Shown: piece by piece, positions 44,235 through 53,995 of the stretch
How the letters are laid out: each line of letters begins with the position of its first letter
Position numbering within the stretch: the stretch's first letter is position 1
Assembly (NCBI RefSeq): GCF_003315205.1
Contig: NZ_QNRR01000001.1
Location: forward strand, 434,001 to 498,000
Direction: 5' to 3'
Source of the DNA: Roseimicrobium gellanilyticum
GTDB lineage: Bacteria > Verrucomicrobiota > Verrucomicrobiia > Verrucomicrobiales > Verrucomicrobiaceae
DNA length: 64,000 nt
The notes under the pieces: generated by a model
Databases searched by the model: none
What the model was told of the DNA's origin: nothing
Seen by the model: the letters and a program-made list of their open reading frames with translations, nothing else
Made by a program: the position numbers and the translations under genes

Positions 44235-47200
44235 ATGAGAACATTTTTCCTCCTTGCCTTCAGTTTTTGTCTCGCCTCTTCCCTGATGGGTCAGGCGACG
44301 CCACCCAAGCCGCCGGCCACTCCTGCGGCTCCGGCTGCGCCCGCTCCCGCGGGCAGCACTGCGCTGAATCCTGAGCAGGAAATGCAGCAGATGTTTGACG
44401 ACATCCAGGCCACCTTTACCAAGGGCCAGTATGACGTCACGCTGCAGAAGATCGGCGGCTTCCACACGAAGACCAACAACAAGGACTTCCCCCAAATCAT
44501 CTTCCTGGAGGGGGCGTGCCATTTCAACCTCAAGCAATACGACAAAGCTGCGACGTTCTTCGAGAAGTTCGTCACGACCTACAAGGACGATCCGGAGCAG
44601 GCGGGGCCGATCAACGACGCCCTGATGGCGCTTGGCGAATCTTACCTGAACGCGGGCATGGCGGACAAGGGCATTGAGGCTCTCAAGAAGGCGGCGGCCG
44701 TGGATGAGCTGCGTGACCGCGCGGGCCTGATGATCGCCAACCACCACAAGAAGGCCGGTCAGGTGGATGAGGCGCTGCAGATCCTTGAAGTCGTGTTGAA
44801 AGACCAGGAGGGGGCACCCACGCAGGAGCAGCAACAGGCGATTCTCCTGGCTTCGGACATCTACGTGGGCAAGGGCCAGACGGACAAGGCCTCCGCCCTC
44901 ATGGAACGCCTTCGCGCCGGCACCAGTGGTGCTGAGAGCATCGTGGAACTGAACATCCTCGCACAGAAGGTGGGCGACGCCATGCTGGAGTCGAGCAACT
45001 TTGGTGCAGCGCTGCGTGCCTACCAGAGCATGCGCCGCCACTCGGAACTCGTGCGCCTGCAGAAGGAACGTGTGGCCACCATTGAGCGGTGGATCGTCAC
45101 CCTGAACACTCCCGGCGGACGCGTCCAGTTCATGGGCAAGCTGCTCTCGAAGGAAGAAGCGGACGGCCTGCTCGCCCAGAACAAGAAGGTGCTCGAAGAG
45201 ATCGAGGCAGTGAAGGACTACGATGCGAACATCTACTACCGCCTCGGCCAGTGCTTCTATGAGATGCAGCGCATGCACGAGTCCATCCTTTCCTTCAAGG
45301 AGGTCTACGAGAACTTCAGGGAATTCCCGGGTCGTGATGGCGCTCTCTTTGGCATGATTGCAGCCAACCAGCGTTTGGAACGCGCGGGCCGCGCCTACAA
45401 GCTGTGCGAACAGTACATGAAGGAGTTTCCGGAAGGGAAGTTCATCACAGACGTGACGCAGATGTTTGGCTCGCTGGCGTATGAGAGCGGCAATCTGGAC
45501 GAGGCAGAGTCCTCCCTGCAGCGTGTGGTCGCTTCCACGAAGGACGCCGACCAGAAGGTCTCCCTCATGTTCCTCCTGGGCGTGGTGCAGTTTGAATCGC
45601 AGAAGTTCGACGCCTGCCGTGGCACCTTCCAGCAGCTGGTGACTGAGCACAAGACCGCGGTGCAGCGTCCTGCCGCCCAGTACTACATCGCCCTGTCCTA
45701 CTTCTTCCAGAACGATTCCGTGAAGACCCGCCGTGCACTGCGCGACTACATCACGGAGAATCCGAAGGGTGAGTACATCGTGGACGCGCGCTACCGTCTC
45801 GCATTCATCGAAGTGCAGGGACGTGCCAACGTGGCTGAAGCCCAGACCGACCTTGAAAAACTGACTCAGGACTATCCGAACGACACCAACATCGGCCAGG
45901 TGTGGTCCCTGCTGGGAGACATCTACTCCCAGAAGCAGCCTACGGAAGATGAGGTCAAGAAGGGTGTCGACTACGTGGCCAAGACGCTAGAGGCCTACCG
46001 CAACGCGGTGGACAAGGCCAAGTCCCCGGACGTGATTAATTACGCCATCGAAAACGCCACCAACCTCATGGTGGAAAAGGGCCTGTACAAGGAACTGGCC
46101 GACATGTGGTCCAAATACTATTCCGTCTGGCAGGGCAAGCCGGAAGCCCTCAAGGCCATCTACTGGATCACCCGCGCGAAGGAACGTGATGCCAAGGAAC
46201 TGATGAGCCAGGGCAAAACGGATGAAGCGAAGGCCGCTGAGCAGGATGCCCGCAAACTGGTGGCGAAAGAATTGGCTCCGCACCTTGGCAATCCCGGAAA
46301 TGAACAGGTGGAAGTGCTGCTTCAGCAGCTCACCACGATGATGGTGCCCAAGCGCCGTTCCCGTGCCCAGGCCGCCGCTGCTGCTGCCGCGGCCGCTGCT
46401 GCGGCAACTCCAGCCCCTGCTCCTGCTGCCTCTCCGGATGGAGCGGCACCGACCCCGCCTGCCGATGGCGCGGCGACACCTGCGCCAGCCGCGGCTCCGA
46501 CGCCTCCGCCAGCTCCTCCCACTCCTGAAATCACCTTTGAGCAGGTCGAGGAAGAGTTTAAGCAACTGGTCACTCCGGAAAGTGGCAATGTGAACGGCAC
46601 CGCTGCCGCGCGCATCCTCTACGGCCGGGCGCTGATCGCCCGTGGTTTCCGCGACGTGACGAAGTTCGAAAATCTCATCAATCTGATTCCCGACGCCGCC
46701 AAGGCGGAGGAACTGAGCCCTCTGCTTCTCGCCACCCTTGGTGACTTGATGTTCAAGAAGGGCGACTACGACAAGGCTGGCCAGTTCTATGAGCAGATTC
46801 GCCTCAAGTATCCGAACAGCGAGTTCGGCGACCGTGCACCTGCCGGCCTCGGTGAGATTGCCTTCCAGAAGAAGGACTACGAGACCGCGATGACCCTGTT
46901 TACCGAAGCGGTTGAGAAGTATGCCTTCAGCCCTGACAGCATCTTGAACGGTACTCTTGGACGCGCCAAGACCTTCCTTGCCCAAGGAAAGTATGACGAG
47001 GCGCTCAAGCTCTACGAAACCGTGATGAACACTCGCGAATGGCGTTCCGCCATGCCGGAGGCTCTGTTCGGCGTGGGGCAGTGCTATGAAGGCAAGGCGG
47101 AGCCGAAAAAGGCCGTGGACTTCTACCGGAAGATCATCATCGCGAACCGCAAGAACAAGCCCATCCTGGCCAAGGCTTACATTCAGGCGGCCAAGTGCTA

Positions 47201-47324
47201 CGTCCAACTCAAGGACAGCGAGAACGCCCGCAAGGTGCTTGAGGAAATGCTCCGCCAGAAGGACATTACGGACCTGCCCGAATTCGAGCAGGGGAGAGCG
47301 CTCATCAACACCGTTGGCCAATAG
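44235..47324 (+). CDS. Large exported TPR-repeat protein (first gene of the ExbBD operon)
   Basis: 1,029 residues from the ATG at 44235, which starts a signal peptide (MRTFFLLAFSFCLASSLMGQA). The body is a superhelix of TPR-like helix pairs (for instance FLEGACHFNLKQYDKAATFFEKF, DANIYYRLGQCFYEMQRMHESI, ALFGVGQCYEGKAEPKKAVDFY), interrupted at about 706-770 by an Ala/Pro-rich linker. It is probably periplasmic. Pieces resemble YbgF/CpoB-type TPR scaffolds that accompany Tol-Pal, which fits the ExbB/ExbD genes that follow. The next gene starts 30 bases on. No catalytic motif is seen. Confidence 0.8.
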   Translation: MRTFFLLAFSFCLASSLMGQATPPKPPATPAAPAAPAPAGSTALNPEQEMQQMFDDIQATFTKGQYDVTLQKIGGFHTKTNNKDFPQIIFLEGACHFNLKQYDKAATFFEKFVTTYKDDPEQAGPINDALMALGESYLNAGMADKGIEALKKAAAVDELRDRAGLMIANHHKKAGQVDEALQILEVVLKDQEGAPTQEQQQAILLASDIYVGKGQTDKASALMERLRAGTSGAESIVELNILAQKVGDAMLESSNFGAALRAYQSMRRHSELVRLQKERVATIERWIVTLNTPGGRVQFMGKLLSKEEADGLLAQNKKVLEEIEAVKDYDANIYYRLGQCFYEMQRMHESILSFKEVYENFREFPGRDGALFGMIAANQRLERAGRAYKLCEQYMKEFPEGKFITDVTQMFGSLAYESGNLDEAESSLQRVVASTKDADQKVSLMFLLGVVQFESQKFDACRGTFQQLVTEHKTAVQRPAAQYYIALSYFFQNDSVKTRRALRDYITENPKGEYIVDARYRLAFIEVQGRANVAEAQTDLEKLTQDYPNDTNIGQVWSLLGDIYSQKQPTEDEVKKGVDYVAKTLEAYRNAVDKAKSPDVINYAIENATNLMVEKGLYKELADMWSKYYSVWQGKPEALKAIYWITRAKERDAKELMSQGKTDEAKAAEQDARKLVAKELAPHLGNPGNEQVEVLLQQLTTMMVPKRRSRAQAAAAAAAAAAAATPAPAPAASPDGAAPTPPADGAATPAPAAAPTPPPAPPTPEITFEQVEEEFKQLVTPESGNVNGTAAARILYGRALIARGFRDVTKFENLINLIPDAAKAEELSPLLLATLGDLMFKKGDYDKAGQFYEQIRLKYPNSEFGDRAPAGLGEIAFQKKDYETAMTLFTEAVEKYAFSPDSILNGTLGRAKTFLAQGKYDEALKLYETVMNTREWRSAMPEALFGVGQCYEGKAEPKKAVDFYRKIIIANRKNKPILAKAYIQAAKCYVQLKDSENARKVLEEMLRQKDITDLPEFEQGRALINTVGQ

Positions 47325-47354
47325 TCAGTCCATATTCTGAGCAGGTTCCGCTTC

Positions 47355-48269
47355 ATGAAAGCCGCACTCATTTTTTCATTCCTTTGCCTCTGCGCCACCG
47401 GGCTGCATGCCCAGGCGCTGGTGCTCAAGGATGGCTCCCGCATTCCGGGTGGCCAGTTCACCATCGAAAACGGGAAGATCCAGCAGACCAAGACGCTCTC
47501 CAATGGCCAGAAGGCCCAGGTGATGGTCGCCGTGGAGAGCATCGATCGCCTGGAATGGCCGGAGGTGAACCAGATACTGGAAGCCCAGACGTTGATGTCC
47601 GAAGGCAAGGCGAAGGAAGCCGTCGACATCCTTCAGAAGGCCAAGGACTACTTCAAGCCCTTCAAGAGCGTCAAGGGCAGCCCGTACAACGATGTGTCCT
47701 TTGCCCTCGTGGAAGTGATGGACCAGGCAGGTGACTTTGATTCCCTGCTTCGTGTGCTTCCTGAAGTGGAGGCCATGAAGTGGGACGGGACCAAGGCGTT
47801 CAAGCTGCAGATCGTGAAGCTGAACATGGATCGCCGTACCTCCTCGGATGTGGATACGATTCTGGCCCGGGCCCAGCAATTGCTGCGTGACTCTGACGAT
47901 TCGTCGATTGCCGCGCGTCTTTGGATCACCATTGCCGAGATTCACACCCGCAAGGAACGTTGGGAGGAGGCCTTCGAAGCCTACCTGCACGTGCCTGTCT
48001 TCTACGGCAGCCAGGGCGCTCTGGTGCCTCAGGCAGAACTCTCCGCCGCCCGTACCCTGGTGAAGATGGAACTTTTCAAGGACGCCGTGGGCTTCTACCA
48101 GAGGATTCAGGAACAGTACGCCGGGTCGGAAATCGCGGAGACCGCGAAGAAAGAGATGATGCCCATCAACGGCCTGCCGAACAAGGCGGACAAGGTCCCC
48201 GGTTCGAAGGCCAAGGACAAAGGCAAAGAAGAATCACCAAAGACCGCCGCAAACCCAGATTCAAAGTAA
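47355..48269 (+). CDS. Exported helical-repeat protein, operon member
   Basis: 304 residues. Signal peptide 1-19 (FSFLCLCATGLHAQ), then a beta-rich stretch (VLKDGSRIPGGQFTIENGKI) that resembles the small SLA1/SH3-like fold seen after many verrucomicrobial signal peptides, then TPR-like helices to about residue 270 and a Lys-rich tail. Not recognised beyond that. It lies between the TPR gene and exbB with only 9 bases to the latter, so all are one transcription unit. A scaffold role in the periplasm is an inference. Confidence 0.72.
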   Translation: MKAALIFSFLCLCATGLHAQALVLKDGSRIPGGQFTIENGKIQQTKTLSNGQKAQVMVAVESIDRLEWPEVNQILEAQTLMSEGKAKEAVDILQKAKDYFKPFKSVKGSPYNDVSFALVEVMDQAGDFDSLLRVLPEVEAMKWDGTKAFKLQIVKLNMDRRTSSDVDTILARAQQLLRDSDDSSIAARLWITIAEIHTRKERWEEAFEAYLHVPVFYGSQGALVPQAELSAARTLVKMELFKDAVGFYQRIQEQYAGSEIAETAKKEMMPINGLPNKADKVPGSKAKDKGKEESPKTAANPDSK

Positions 48270-48278
48270 CCAGACACC

Positions 48279-49139
48279 ATGCACATCACATCCCCGAATC
48301 GTACCCGTTCCCGAACCACCCTCTGGCTTGGACGCCTGCTCATCTGCGGCACGTTGCTCTGCGGGTCCGTCAACGCCTTTGCGGAGGAGGCGCCTGCCGG
48401 AGGTGAAGGTGCGGCGAAGGTGGTCCACCACAAGAAGTCGATGCTGGACAAGTTCAAGGAAGGTGGCTGGGTGATGTACCCCATCCTTGGCTTCTCGGTG
48501 CTGACCATCTGGCTTTCCGTGGACCTCTGGATTCGCACGGGCAAGAAGAAGCTGGCCCCGGATGCGCATGTGAACGGCGCGAAGGACCTCTTCCGCATGG
48601 GCGACTACGTCGGCGCCTACCAGCACTGCAAGAACAATCCCTCCGCCTTCAGCGACTCCACCCGTGTGGCTCTCAGCTTCATCGGGGACGGCCAGCAGGC
48701 GACGGAAGACGCCATGATCGGTGAACTGAACAAGTTCAACGCGGCCACGACCACCCGAATCAACTACCTCTCGGTTATCGGGGTGTGCACTCCGATGGTG
48801 GGTCTCCTCGGAACGGTGACGGGTATGGTGACCGCGTTCGAACACCTTGGCACCGCCGGCGTGGGCGACCCCTCCGGTCTGTCCGCGGCCATCGGTGAAG
48901 TGCTCATCGCCACGGCGTCCGGTCTGGCCATCGCCATTCCGGCGTTCATGATGTTCTACGTGCTGCGCAACCGCCTGCAGGGATCCATCCACTATGCCCA
49001 GGACATTGTGGTCTCCCTGTTCCGCAAGATGCCCTACGAAGATCTCAAGGATTGCCACGTGGGCGAGGAAGAATTCTTCGCCGCCCGCCCGAACTGGGTG
49101 GCGGACGATGCTGGTGCAGCCCATGCGGTGCCTGCCTGA
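48279..49139 (+). CDS. exbB: ExbB/TolQ/MotA-family proton channel subunit
   Basis: 286 residues. A signal-like N-terminus (about 15-36) is followed by the ExbB core: first span at about 63-82 (WVMYPILGFSVLTIWLSVDLW), then a cytoplasmic loop with RVALSFIGDGQQATEDA, second and third spans at about 165-190 and 207-232, including IGVCTPMVGLLGTVTGMVTAFEHL and EVLIATASGLAIAIPAFMMF. ExbB pentamers with ExbD dimers use proton flow to drive TonB. The signal-like N-terminal segment is an added feature of some environmental ExbB proteins. Two exbD genes follow. Confidence 0.93.
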   Translation: MHITSPNRTRSRTTLWLGRLLICGTLLCGSVNAFAEEAPAGGEGAAKVVHHKKSMLDKFKEGGWVMYPILGFSVLTIWLSVDLWIRTGKKKLAPDAHVNGAKDLFRMGDYVGAYQHCKNNPSAFSDSTRVALSFIGDGQQATEDAMIGELNKFNAATTTRINYLSVIGVCTPMVGLLGTVTGMVTAFEHLGTAGVGDPSGLSAAIGEVLIATASGLAIAIPAFMMFYVLRNRLQGSIHYAQDIVVSLFRKMPYEDLKDCHVGEEEFFAARPNWVADDAGAAHAVPA

Positions 49140-49153
49140 TCGAGAAAATGAAC

Positions 49154-49175
49154 GGAGCCTGCGCCAGCAGGCTCC
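49154..49175 (+). promoter_or_regulatory. Intercistronic hairpin between exbB and exbD
   Basis: GGAGCCTGC-GCCA-GCAGGCTCC: a perfect 9-pair stem with a four-base loop, directly after the exbB stop. No T-tract follows. It may protect the upstream mRNA or attenuate read-through, changing the ExbB to ExbD ratio. Confidence 0.5.
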
Positions 49176-49221
49176 AATTTCTTCAACGAGTCTCATTCAA
49201 CCTTTTACTTTTTTCTGACTT

Positions 49222-49656
49222 ATGGGCGGCGGCGGCGGCAGTATGGAGAGCGGCGAACCGGAGTTTCAAATTGCTCCGATGATCGACTGCTTGCTTGTGT
49301 TGCTCATTTTCTTCATGAGCATCACCACGGCTTCGGTGTTGCAGATTGACAAGGACATCGTCCTTCCGGTCGCGCCCGATGCGAAGAAGCCTGAAAAGGC
49401 CAAGGTCCAGGAAGGCGCCATCAACGTGAAGTGGGATGCGAAGGCCCAGAAAGGCGTATTCAGCTTTGAAGGCGTCACCTATGATGACACCGCCGTGCTC
49501 GTGGAGCGCCTGAAGGAACGCCTTGAGACGATCAAGGGCTACCGCCTGATCATCCGCGGTGACAGTCGTCTCCCCGCCGTCGAGATCCAGAAGACCATGA
49601 ATATCCTGGCGAATGCCGGATACTCGGATCTCTCGTTTTCCGCCCTGAATCAGTAG
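49222..49656 (+). CDS. exbD: ExbD/TolR-family protein (first of two)
   Basis: 144 residues, full length for ExbD. The N-terminus is a short Gly-rich cytoplasmic tail; the single span has the conserved Asp at QIAPMIDCLLVLLIFFMS, where protons pass. The C-terminal domain is the periplasmic ExbD fold. Second exbD begins 26 bases later, and the hairpin at 49154-49175 separates this gene from exbB. Confidence 0.93.
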   Translation: MGGGGGSMESGEPEFQIAPMIDCLLVLLIFFMSITTASVLQIDKDIVLPVAPDAKKPEKAKVQEGAINVKWDAKAQKGVFSFEGVTYDDTAVLVERLKERLETIKGYRLIIRGDSRLPAVEIQKTMNILANAGYSDLSFSALNQ

Positions 49657-49682
49657 CAATTCCTCTTTCTCTTCTTTTCCCT

Positions 49683-50165
49683 ATGAGCAGTCACGGACAC
49701 AAGGGCCGCAGACAGATCGAAACCGAAAGCCCGAATGCGGGCTTTCAGATCGCCCCGATGATCGACGTCGTGTTCGTGATCATGCTTTTCTTCATGGTCA
49801 TGGCGAACAGCGTGAAGGTGGAGTACGAGCTGAAGACTGCGCTCCCCGGCATCGCCCAGACCACCAATGAAGAAGTGGTCATGCCGGATGAAATCACCAT
49901 TGAGGTCTCTGAAGACGATCTGGTGACCATGAACGAGGAGGTCTATGACGCCGATCTTCCTCCGGACCAGGCGAAGAAGCTTCCCACGCTGACCGACAGC
50001 CTCACCCGCCTGAAGAAGGATGCGGATGACCGCGGCAGCAAGGTGCTCGTCACCTTGGTGACCGAGGAACAGGCCAAATATGGCCGCATCATTGATGTGA
50101 TGAACGCCCTCGCCAAGGCCAAGATTTCCAACGTGACCTTCACCGTCGGCTCCGAAGAATTTTAA
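49683..50165 (+). CDS. exbD: ExbD/TolR-family protein (second of two)
   Basis: 160 residues. Span and Asp motif QIAPMIDVVFVIMLFFMV. The periplasmic domain is longer than in the first copy, with an acidic insert (EVSEDDLVTMNEEVYDADLP). Two ExbD proteins in one operon suggest a heterodimer, as described for systems that use ExbD1 and ExbD2 in Xanthomonas. The next gene begins 63 bases downstream. Confidence 0.92.
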   Translation: MSSHGHKGRRQIETESPNAGFQIAPMIDVVFVIMLFFMVMANSVKVEYELKTALPGIAQTTNEEVVMPDEITIEVSEDDLVTMNEEVYDADLPPDQAKKLPTLTDSLTRLKKDADDRGSKVLVTLVTEEQAKYGRIIDVMNALAKAKISNVTFTVGSEEF

Positions 50166-50228
50166 TGGTTTGTTCAAAGATTCCGGCCCCTTGGCCGTCA
50201 TGCCTTTAACAACCTGCCCGCTCCGCTC

Positions 50229-51989
50229 ATGAGTGACCAGCAACCTCCCAGTGGCAATCCGGTGCCACCGAACCCAGGCGTGACGCCTGTGCAGATCCAA
50301 TCCCTTACGCCAGGAGGCAGCAGCTCCTCTGCGGTGCCGATTCCGGCTGCCCCGGTGATTCCGCCGCCCACCGTCTCCTCCGCGGTACAACTGGAGACCG
50401 CTGCCTATGAAGAAGGCGCCACCGCCTATCCGGAGCATCACACCGACTTTCACGCGCCGCACTACGCTCCAGCTCCGAAGAAGAACATCTTCGTGCAGTA
50501 CTGGAACAAGGTGGGGGGCGGTTCCTTCCTCATCAGCTTGTTGATTCACGCCGGCCTTTTGATTGGCGCGTTCTTCATCGTGAAGGAGTACAGCACCGAG
50601 AAGAAGGTGGATTTCCTCCCCGGTGGTGGCAGCAAGGAGGGCCAGCAGGCCAGCCAGCAGCTCGCCCAGAAGGTGCAGAACAAGAAGCGCAGCTCGCTGA
50701 ACAAGTCCACCCCGATGCGGAAGGTGGTCTCCATGAATGCCACGAGCGCCATCCAGCTTCCCGAGGTGCCCATGGAATCGATCGACATGCCCGAAATGAG
50801 CAGCCTCATGGGCGGCTCCATGGGCAGCGGTGGTTTTGGAACGGGTGGTGCGGGTGGTGGATTCGGCAAGGGCACCGGCATCGGTGGCAACACCGGCTTC
50901 GTGAGCCTGCCTCCTTCCATGAGAAGCCGCTGCAGCAGCGCGGAACGTCTCCAGAAACTCAAGGAAAGCGGCGGTACCGCTGAGTGCGAGCGCGCGGTGA
51001 GCAACGCTCTGGAGTATCTCAAGAGCAAGCAGAAGCCTGATGGCAGCTGGGGCACCAACTCCAAGGGCGCCATGACCGGTTTCGCCCTGTTGTGCTTCCT
51101 CGGTCGCTGCGAGACACCCGAGTCCATCTACTACGGCGACAACGTGATGAAGGGGATTCTCTTCCTCATCGAGATGCAGAAGAAGAATCCGTACAAGATG
51201 TTCAGCCAGGCGACCTCTGGGAACGGCCCGGTGTATGAGCACGGCATTGCGACCTACGCGTTGGGTGAGATGTACACGCTCGCTCGTATGGGCAGCAAAT
51301 CCCTCCCCGGCATGCGTGAAGCCTTTGAGCAGGGCGTGCAGGTCATCATCGACAACCAACAGCCCAGCGGAAGCTGGGTGTACGACACGGAGAAGGGCTT
51401 CTATGCCAACCCTGGTCGTGAAGACCTTTCCGTCACGGGATGGCAGTACCAAGCGCTCAAGGCGGCCAGACTGACCAGCCTGAAGATCAACGGCCTCAAC
51501 TCTTCCATCGACAAGACAGTCAAATATCTCGAAGGTAAGCAGACCAAGGATGGCGGCATCGGCAATTCCAACCGCGAAGGTGGCTACAATCAGTGGAATT
51601 TGACCGGTGCTGGCGCGCTGGGTCTCCAGACGCTCGCCCATGGTGGCAAGAAGACGGAAATCAAGAAGGCCATCACCTTCGCCCATGAGCTCTTCAAGAA
51701 GGAGCCGCCGGAGTTTGCCACGGGTGACATGTACGGCTGGTACTACTACCACCAGGCCTTCTTCCAGTTCGGTGGAGAAGAGTGGAAGTACTGGAACGAA
51801 CTTGTCCTGCCCCAACTCTTGAAGGCCCAGCAGCCCGATGGCAGCTGGAAGCCCAATGGCGCCGCGCACAATCCCTCCGCTGGTGGTGACAACGTCTATG
51901 CAACCGCTCTCTGCACACTGATGCTGGAAGTGTACTACCGCTACCTGAAGGTGGGCGACCGCGAACAGAAGTCGATGTTCGACCGGTAA
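50229..51989 (+). CDS. TonB-like anchored protein with alpha/alpha-toroid (prenyltransferase-repeat) domain
   Basis: 586 residues. Cytoplasmic Pro/Ser-rich N-terminus (1-90), one membrane span at about 100-118 with the SLLIH motif (S103-x3-H107), equivalent to the essential Ser-x3-His of TonB. A linker (residues about 122-228) is charged, then Gly-rich. Residues 250-570 form a prenyltransferase/squalene-oxidase-repeat toroid, with DGSWG, GSWVYDTEKG, KDGGIG and QQPDGSW motifs spaced 60 to 90 residues apart. C235 and C253 flank its start. Catalytic Asp motifs of squalene-hopene cyclases (DxDD) are not seen. It sits right after exbB-exbD-exbD, so it is the presumed energised partner. Confidence 0.8.
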   Translation: MSDQQPPSGNPVPPNPGVTPVQIQSLTPGGSSSSAVPIPAAPVIPPPTVSSAVQLETAAYEEGATAYPEHHTDFHAPHYAPAPKKNIFVQYWNKVGGGSFLISLLIHAGLLIGAFFIVKEYSTEKKVDFLPGGGSKEGQQASQQLAQKVQNKKRSSLNKSTPMRKVVSMNATSAIQLPEVPMESIDMPEMSSLMGGSMGSGGFGTGGAGGGFGKGTGIGGNTGFVSLPPSMRSRCSSAERLQKLKESGGTAECERAVSNALEYLKSKQKPDGSWGTNSKGAMTGFALLCFLGRCETPESIYYGDNVMKGILFLIEMQKKNPYKMFSQATSGNGPVYEHGIATYALGEMYTLARMGSKSLPGMREAFEQGVQVIIDNQQPSGSWVYDTEKGFYANPGREDLSVTGWQYQALKAARLTSLKINGLNSSIDKTVKYLEGKQTKDGGIGNSNREGGYNQWNLTGAGALGLQTLAHGGKKTEIKKAITFAHELFKKEPPEFATGDMYGWYYYHQAFFQFGGEEWKYWNELVLPQLLKAQQPDGSWKPNGAAHNPSAGGDNVYATALCTLMLEVYYRYLKVGDREQKSMFDR

Positions 51990-52024
51990 GCTCCGGCAGA
52001 AGGTAAACAGCCATAGCGATTTTG

Positions 52025-52056
52025 TGAAGGGCCTCCTCGGAGGTCCTTCATTGTTT
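52025..52056 (+). terminator. Intrinsic terminator after the first toroid gene
   Basis: TGAAGGGCCTCC-TC-GGAGGTCCTTCA, a 12-pair stem with one G-T, followed by TTGTTT. It closes the TPR to toroid operon before the second copy. Confidence 0.75.
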
Positions 52057-52239
52057 GGGCAACTGAGCGGAGCTCATGCACCGGCGGCGGCGTACTCCTG
52101 CGTGCGGCACTATGGTGTATCACACTGGGATGGATGTTGCGCGCAGCCCAATCGTTACGCGGAGCAGGCGCTTTTCTTGGAAGTTCAGACAGGTGTCTCT
52201 CCATTCTCGTCATGCGGGCGAACTCAACACGCGTCCGCA

Positions 52240-52384
52240 ATGAACGAATCACCCTCTCCGCAACGCCACGAGCCCCGGCCATCTGGAGAAGTGGCCGGGG
52301 CTGTCCAGATACAGTCTCTCACCGGGTGGGGGCAATCCGCCCGACCAAGCGACTCCTCAAATAGCCGCGCCTTCCGGGAGGGTG
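52240..52384 (+). pseudogene. Out-of-frame N-terminal remnant of the second toroid protein
   Basis: The frame from ATG 52240 carries the family N-terminus (SGEVAGAVQIQSLT), and a third frame near 52440-52458 reads HYVPFP, matching HYAPAP of the first copy. The intact copy then resumes in yet another frame at about 52480. Two indels therefore separate the original start from the body, so the present ORF must begin at an internal codon, if translated. Confidence 0.6.
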
Positions 52385-53995
52385 ATGGAGACGGCATGTC
52401 TGCGGCCAGCAGTACTCGAGCGTGGGGTCGCCTCGTCTTGCGCACTACGTTCCATTTCCGTATCCAGTGGTGTGAAGAGGAGCTTCCTCGCGGCTTATTG
52501 GGAGAAGGTGGGTGGTGGTTCGTTCATCGTAAGCCTGGTGATTCATGCTGGGCTTTTGATCATGGCATTCTTTGTTGTGAAGGAGTACCAGCAGGAACCC
52601 ACGGTGGACTTCCTACCTGGATTCCAAGCGGCCGGGCAGAAGCGGACCAGTGACAATCTCACGGCGAAGATTCACGACTCGCGAGTCAGAAACATGCAGA
52701 AGAATCTCAAACCCGTGCGGGTTGCCGTTCCCACTCCTGCGCCTGGCCAGCTCCTGCTGCCGGAGATGCCCACGGACGTGATCGAGGTGCCCGAGCCGAG
52801 CTTGAGCACCTTTGGCGATGCCAAGGGCATTCCCGGGGAGCTGGGAAAGGTTGGGACGAAAGCTGGTGGCGCGGGAAGAGGTACGGGGCCGGGGAATGCT
52901 CCGGGAGTGGTGCAGCTTCCCGTTTCCATGAGGGGTCGGTGCAGCAGTGCGGAGCGTCTGCGGAAGCTCACGGCGGGCGGTGGCACCGCCGAGTGTGAGC
53001 GCGCCGTGAGCAGTGCGCTGGAGCACCTGAAGAGCAAGCAGAAGTCTGATGGCGGCTGGGGTACAAACAACCGTGGGGCGATGACGGGCTTTGCCTTGCT
53101 GTGCTTCCTTGATCGCTGCGAGACGCCCGAGTCCATCTACTACGGGGACAATGTGATGAAGGGCATCCTCTTCCTCATGGAGATGCAGCAGAAGAATCCG
53201 TACAAGATGTTCAGCCAGGCCACCTCGGGCAATGGCCAGGTGTATGAGCATGGCATCGCGACGTATGCGCTCGGTGAGATGTACACGCTGGCGCGCATGG
53301 GCAGCAAGTCGCTGCCGGGCATGCGCGAGTCCTTTGAGCAAGGCGTGCAGGTCATCATTGATAACCAGCAGGCGGGTGGCGGCTGGGTGTATGACAGCGA
53401 GAAGGGCTTCTACTCACCGAGCCGCGAAGACCTCTCTGTGACCGGCTGGCAATATCAGGCGCTGAAGGCGGCAAAGCTTACGGGACTGAAGATTCGTGGT
53501 CTCGAAGGCGCGATTGATAAGACGGTGAAGTACCTTGAGAGCAAGCAGACGAAGGATGGCGGTATCGGCACGACGAATCGTGAAGGCAGCTACAACCAGT
53601 GGAATCTCACGGGTGCCGGAACACTGGGATTGCAGACACTGGCACACGGTGGAAAGAAGACGGAAATCAAGAAGGCCATCGCGTTTGCCCATGACCTCTT
53701 CAAGAAGGAGCCGCCAGAGTTTGCCACGGGCGACATGTATGGCTGGTACTACTACCACCAGGCCTTCTTCCAGCATGGTGGTGAAGAGTGGAAGTACTGG
53801 AACGAGCTCGTGCTACCGCAGTTGCTAAAAGCGCAGCAGCCGGATGGAAGCTGGAAGCCCAATGGTGGTGCCCATAATCCCGCAGCGGGCGGGGACAATG
53901 TGTACTCCACGGCGCTGTGCACACTGATGCTGGAGGTGTACTACCGGTACCTGAAGGTGGGGGACAGGGAGCGGGGGTCGTTGTTTGATCGGTAG
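52385..53995 (+). CDS. Second TonB-like anchored toroid protein (paralogue, N-terminus altered)
   Basis: 536 residues from the ATG at 52385 (GTG at 52382 possible). The first 35 residues are out-of-frame relic sequence. Then AAYWEKVGGGSF leads into the span IVSLVIHAGLLIMAFFVVKEY, with the same S-x3-H motif (SLVIH). A linker differs from the first copy, and the C-terminal 360 residues match the toroid nearly residue for residue (CETPESIYYGDNVMKGILFL, EHGIATYALGEMYTLARMGS, GDMYGWYYYHQAFFQ). It is separated from the first copy by a terminator. The original start region at 52240 is frameshifted, so this copy may be poorly expressed. Confidence 0.72.
   Translation: METACLRPAVLERGVASSCALRSISVSSGVKRSFLAAYWEKVGGGSFIVSLVIHAGLLIMAFFVVKEYQQEPTVDFLPGFQAAGQKRTSDNLTAKIHDSRVRNMQKNLKPVRVAVPTPAPGQLLLPEMPTDVIEVPEPSLSTFGDAKGIPGELGKVGTKAGGAGRGTGPGNAPGVVQLPVSMRGRCSSAERLRKLTAGGGTAECERAVSSALEHLKSKQKSDGGWGTNNRGAMTGFALLCFLDRCETPESIYYGDNVMKGILFLMEMQQKNPYKMFSQATSGNGQVYEHGIATYALGEMYTLARMGSKSLPGMRESFEQGVQVIIDNQQAGGGWVYDSEKGFYSPSREDLSVTGWQYQALKAAKLTGLKIRGLEGAIDKTVKYLESKQTKDGGIGTTNREGSYNQWNLTGAGTLGLQTLAHGGKKTEIKKAIAFAHDLFKKEPPEFATGDMYGWYYYHQAFFQHGGEEWKYWNELVLPQLLKAQQPDGSWKPNGGAHNPAAGGDNVYSTALCTLMLEVYYRYLKVGDRERGSLFDR

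Follow-up and report, generated by a model that had tools for sequence, protein, structure and literature searches.

The window analysed here is the whole 64,000-nucleotide stretch of Roseimicrobium gellanilyticum DNA (assembly GCF_003315205.1, contig NZ_QNRR01000001.1, positions 434,001 to 498,000), and the system in question is a cassette at 44,235-53,995 of seven open reading frames (ORFs), all on the + strand, encoding two tetratricopeptide repeat (TPR) proteins, an ExbB, two ExbDs and two tandem toroid proteins. With a probability of about 0.72, this cassette is a proton-driven machine for force transduction in the cell envelope, in which the toroid proteins are TonB-like transducers and the toroid is one of several exchangeable tips. 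A TonB-like role had been proposed in an earlier note on this DNA, and four lines of evidence from the sequences support it: conservation of a histidine in the membrane span, an anchor common to three unrelated domains, a conserved gene slot, and a matching hub on ExbB.

In the proposed mechanism, ExbB and the two ExbDs would form an inner-membrane motor, and the transducer span would dock on the side of ExbB, with Ser103 and His107 against ExbB Ser73, Trp78 and a proline of the third transmembrane helix (TM3). Proton flow would move the span; a mostly disordered linker of ~110 residues would cross the periplasm and carry force or movement; and the toroid would serve at the far end as a non-catalytic domain gripping a target located either in the periplasm or at the outer membrane. 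Tips on this anchor would be exchangeable and of at least three kinds (toroid, vWA and PA14-like).

All searches covered Verrucomicrobiota, and related genomes are non-independent samples. The source genome is denoted G000, its family f1 (25 genomes; named members are Verrucomicrobiaceae, e.g., Prosthecobacter and Brevifollis), and a putative Akkermansia genus g12. Within the span, conservation was highest at His107, which was kept in 37 of 40 aligned toroid proteins; Ser103 was kept in 32 of the 40 (Ala in 7), and the positions around both varied among hydrophobic residues. When the set was widened to 62 complete spans, 55 had the His (37 as S-x3-H and 18 as A-x3-H). The other seven, one truncated at the His (L203) and six of Luteolibacter/Akkermansiaceae type, were never scored as adjacent to an ExbB (0/7). 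Genomes of motor-adjacent toroids bearing the His had a close ExbB (E 1e-75 or better), and in genomes of other toroids without it (G178-G182) a close motor was missing, the best ExbB having E about 1e-20 to 1e-23. The anchor Ser and His were invariant in 18/18 anchors from three C-terminal classes (toroid, vWA and PA14).

In the E. coli complex resolved by cryo-electron microscopy, TonB Ser16 and His20 contact Ser34 and Trp38 in the first transmembrane helix of ExbB, which are tied to Pro190 in TM3 (PMC12215075, PMC12905483). The window ExbB had the hub residues (S73, W78 and the TM3 Pro). The hub Ser was kept in 56 of 61 ExbBs and the TM3 Pro in nearly all, and the hub Trp was found in 36 of the 61, confined to the clade of the window ExbB. 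The five ExbBs without the hub Ser were exactly the five MUL1 ExbBs of g12, and Trp and Pro were also absent from them (5/5). The pore Thr of ExbB and the proton-binding Asp of the ExbDs, as in ExbBD/TolQR motors, were kept. In the ExbB tree, the f1 motors formed one clade, nested with the motors of PA14 and vWA transducers.

The residues flanking the span and the linker were common to proteins with toroid, vWA or PA14-like C-terminal domains. G000 encoded exactly four anchored proteins: two toroid proteins, L031 (vWA-like; tip at hhalign 84% to confirmed vWA tips, E 8e-6) and L032 (PA14-like; tip at hhalign 100% to tips of which 3/5 match PA14). A profile comparison of the toroid with vWA tips gave a probability of 6.7%. 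A single motor probably serves all four anchored proteins, because only one of the ten MotA_ExbB genes in G000 was close to the window ExbB. Two TonB_C proteins were encoded elsewhere in G000, and therefore an ordinary Ton system exists beside the toroid cassette.

Phylum-wide, an anchored protein was found in 31 of 145 genomes. The slot behind the second ExbD (ExbD2) mostly held a vWA protein (L117, L168, L172-L178, L180-L182, L184), sometimes a PA14 protein (L123, L168, L169) or both in tandem (L168), and held a toroid mainly in Verrucomicrobiales (f1, L237, L240, L242, L243, L245, L246, L248, L258). The C-terminal tips look interchangeable. The TPR genes were kept whichever tip filled the slot; the TPR proteins therefore seem to belong to the core machine and not to one tip. 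This weakened the earlier suggestion that they are partners of the toroid, and a role as partners specific to the toroid was rejected. As a separate observation, the cytosolic tails of some anchored vWA and PA14 transducers contained SAM domains (L123 3683-5317, L168 9229-12238; best Pfam E 2e-18), suggesting cytosolic clustering.

Neighbours were counted by phmmer with the window proteins on six-frame ORFs, many of the loci being short contigs of metagenome-assembled genomes. The cassette ExbB was present in 24 of the 25 f1 genomes, the exception being G019 (85% complete). Toroid loci occur in the cultured relative Brevifollis gellanilyticus NBRC 108608. The toroid gene lay directly behind ExbD2 in 14 of 21 decidable f1 genomes (13 plus G005, which is cut by a contig end); G017, G021 and G024 were left out of this count, as their contigs end too soon. 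Diverged toroids (about 36-43% identity) lay directly behind ExbB-ExbD-ExbD at eight further loci in named genomes, with a TPR gene upstream in six (L237, L240, L242, L245, L246, L248) and downstream in two (L243, L258). The adjacency of toroid and motor is conserved beyond the family, though it is not universal, and the gene order passed the check in other genomes that had been suggested for it. Chance co-location was rejected, given that both the family and the eight more distant loci repeat this order.

Other arrangements of toroid and motor genes were also seen. A second, diverged ExbB-ExbD pair followed directly behind the toroid gene at three loci (L237 10712-11983, L240 10283-11850, L242 10596-11857). 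In G005, a different ExbB-ExbD-TPR cluster (L102, G005:C35, 555-9000) had as neighbour a toroid inside an apparent PD40-type beta-propeller, with a span lacking the His; this is a second association of a toroid with ExbBD.

The predicted structure of transducer 1 (AlphaFold2, AF2; 40-sequence alignment) had a span helix at residues 97-120, a mostly disordered linker, and an all-helical toroid with a predicted local distance difference test score mostly >80 over ~240-572. Its Foldseek neighbours were squalene-hopene cyclase, MstE, AprG and GH76. The agreement of AF2 and Foldseek confirmed, at the level of models, the alpha/alpha toroid fold described earlier as standing where TonB has its C-terminal domain. 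The toroid had the fold and QW-like repeats of the C-terminal toroid of squalene-hopene cyclase (PF13243), and differed from it in being single, membrane-anchored and expected in the periplasm, and in having no DxDD: the motif was found in the toroid domain of none of the 40 members, the single DxDD falling in a linker, and the earlier note had likewise found none.

A more specific version of the proposed machine, which does not exclude the general one, is that of a glycan importer akin to MUL1 of Akkermansia, in which the tips, as adaptors, would grip polymers and draw glycans or glycan carriers into the periplasm; it is a tentative possibility. In other proteins the PA14 fold binds carbohydrates, and the closest folds to the toroid included the sugar-binding AprG and GH76. 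The MUL1 loci (L106-L110) had ExbB-ExbD-ExbD, a TPR protein of ~1100 residues and Mul1B, and the second TPR protein of the window (TPR2) matched the NCBIfam Mul1B family NF052542 below threshold (E 2e-4, 20.6 bits, cut-off 75), its orthologue in G006 reaching E 4e-6. Two reports describe mul genes as required for mucin to accumulate in internal compartments (PMC12418764, PMC13174399). The MUL1 order (ExbB-ExbD-ExbD-Mul1A-Mul1B), however, differed from that of the window, in which the TPR genes precede the motor; MUL1 had no anchored transducer at the locus, its ExbB had lost the hub, and this ExbB was on a long branch and weakly placed in the ExbB tree. Nor were glycan genes found next to the cassette: proline-pathway genes were upstream, genes for shikimate dehydrogenase and for a glutamyl-tRNA synthetase-like protein were downstream (from ORF translations read with no database search), and these flanks do not point to a function. 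Membership of the cassette in MUL1 was rejected, on the gene order, the sub-threshold TPR2 and the missing MUL1 hub, and glycan handling by the toroid cassette is only a lead.

The genus g12 was taken as Akkermansia because its genomes alone matched the Mul1B model above the cut-off. The A2 profile found no anchored protein in any of the g12 genomes searched (15/15), and the g12 toroids examined had no span His and were encoded elsewhere in the genome, not at MUL1. With His-less toroids, no anchored protein and a lost ExbB hub, both sides of the docking interface (the His of the arm; Ser, Trp and Pro of ExbB) appear to be absent together in g12. What the MUL1 ExbB drives is probably not an SHLS transducer, because this ExbB lacks the hub Ser, Trp and Pro. 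Taken together in one speculative scheme, unlikely as a whole, a single ExbBD motor with interchangeable hands might move large polymers or envelope parts without TonB boxes, and the Akkermansia lineage might have lost both docking halves and re-used the motor for mucin import.

Several results weigh against a TonB-like transducer. Compared with the SHLS spacing (Leu at His+7 and Ser at His+11; PMC12905483), the window span had A114 in place of the Leu and V118 in place of the second Ser, and the Ser-Trp spacing in ExbB was 5 instead of 4 (S-x4-W, not S-x3-W). The toroid lay elsewhere, with other genes behind ExbD2, in 7 of the 21 decidable f1 genomes (G003, G009, G010, G011, G013, G016, G022), and several A-x3-H toroids were in genomes without a close motor (ExbB E 1e-26 to 1e-31, an intermediate value). 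The loss of both docking sides was found in one clade, and may reflect shared ancestry. Anchored toroids without the His (L252, L253, L256, L257, L260) and secreted toroids with a signal peptide and no anchor (L033, L100) exist, because of which the toroid domain also seems to work without the motor and its binding role to be separable from it.

These His-less and anchor-less proteins, together with the many toroids not adjacent to a motor, would suit a span that is a mere tether. The toroid would then be a periplasmic protein, binding or enzymatic, held at the membrane by its anchor, and its co-transcription with an ExbBD motor serving another transducer would be incidental. That is improbable, as the mid-span His was kept in nearly all other toroids while its neighbours varied freely, and the same anchor on three unrelated tips, the same slot for all tips and the hub on ExbB also speak against it. 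An active terpene or triterpene cyclase brought to the membrane, despite the squalene-hopene cyclase fold and QW-like repeats, is very improbable given the missing DxDD, on which this reading was rejected, the expected periplasmic placement and an anchor common to non-enzyme tips.

To our knowledge, the arms known for ExbBD/TolQR motors were for a long time limited to TonB and TolA. The cassette resembles the TonB-ExbB-ExbD and TolA-TolQ-TolR systems in the Thr and Asp of the motor pore, the S-x3-H span and the ExbB hub, and differs from them in having no TonB or TolA C-terminal domain, two different ExbDs, two TPR proteins and only half of SHLS. Membership in TonB was rejected, as the toroid proteins had no match to PF03544 (TonB_C).

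The closest known system is that of Williams-Jones et al. (2025), who reported vWA proteins anchored by SHLS spans and encoded after TPR-tolQ-tolR-tolR in bacteria of the Planctomycetes-Verrucomicrobia-Chlamydiae (PVC) group, and modelled their docking (PMC12204202). Both have a TPR gene, a TolQ-like gene, two different TolR-like genes and then a transducer with an SHLS-type span, a disordered linker and a globular tip, and the vWA transducers were likewise proposed to be motor-driven. The order TPR, tolQ, two tolR and anchored transducer was found in the window, and its vWA version in L117, L168, L177 and L180. The window differs in its alpha/alpha toroid tip, a toroid and not a vWA domain by AF2 and Foldseek, and in its two tandem copies, and relatives had a PA14-like tip. 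The cassette is thus a PVC vWA-transducer system with another tip and is not categorically new. The earlier note had called the partner and purpose of the toroid protein undescribed, which is only partly right: the words toroid, prenyltransferase and squalene are absent from the main text of PMC12204202, but the operon type was published there in 2025 with a vWA tip. No description of a toroid transducer was found in the ExbD literature searched, most subscription papers being outside its coverage. As far as this literature goes, the toroid tip, the PA14-like tip, the anchor common to three tips and the two-sided loss in g12 are new.

The toroid adds one more tip class to this anchor, and within one genome three tips seem to use a single motor; the anchor would thus be a general adapter. 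This makes testable what such motors pull on in Verrucomicrobiota, a phylum in which large-glycan uptake matters and is little understood, and the paired changes (the His of the arm; Ser, Trp and Pro of ExbB) are open to direct mutational test.

Table 1. Positions in the window of the cassette genes and of the parts of the toroid transducers.
Feature	Position	Strand	Description	Basis
TPR1	44235..47324	+	~1030-residue periplasmic TPR protein with signal peptide; cassette core	Pfam TPR; N-terminus MRTFFLLAFSFCLASSLMGQA; conserved in f1 cassettes
TPR2	47355..48269	+	304-residue periplasmic helical-repeat protein with signal peptide
ExbB/TolQ-type motor subunit	48279..49139	+	Long N-terminal extension	PF01618, E 2e-22; aligned to solved TolQ
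ExbD1	49222..49656	+	Proton-binding Asp in PMID	PF02472; aligned to ExbD 6tyi
ExbD2	49683..50165	+	Divergent second ExbD; Asp in PMID	PF02472; aligned to TolR
Toroid transducer 1	50229..51989	+	586 residues; cytosolic tail, one span, Gly-rich linker, alpha/alpha toroid
Transmembrane span, transducer 1	50517..50588	+	Residues 97-120	AF2 helix
S103-x3-H107 motif, transducer 1	50535..50549	+	SLLIH
Periplasmic Gly-rich linker, transducer 1	50589..50924	+	DFLPGGG...; common to vWA and PA14 paralogues	Mostly disordered (AF2)
Alpha/alpha toroid domain, transducer 1	50928..51941	+	Residues 234-571	QW-like repeats, no DxDD
Toroid transducer 2	52382..53995	+	Start uncertain; 537 residues from GTG	74% identical to transducer 1
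S51-x3-H55 motif, transducer 2	52532..52546	+	SLVIH; numbered from GTG start

The genes and families (Table 1) were as described earlier for the TPR, helical-repeat, ExbB, ExbD, ExbD and first toroid proteins, including SLLIH at residues 103-107; the second tandem toroid gene had been missed. The identity between transducers 1 and 2 extended over 507 residues. Relative to the congener G001, the transducer 2 gene had a 2-base gap in its cytosolic N-terminal stretch (52240-52382), and its likely original start region (ATG 52240) appears to be out of frame with the span and toroid, either through a genuine change or through a sequencing error. A PHROGs search returned no match. The N-terminus of the window ExbB (48279-48450) had a signal-peptide-like stretch and a long extension, resembling the long ExbBs described for Serratia HasB (PMC9008036). 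A further, distant ExbB/MotA-like gene, in a frame of 386 residues, was found at G000:C1:499272, ~1.3 kb beyond the window end.

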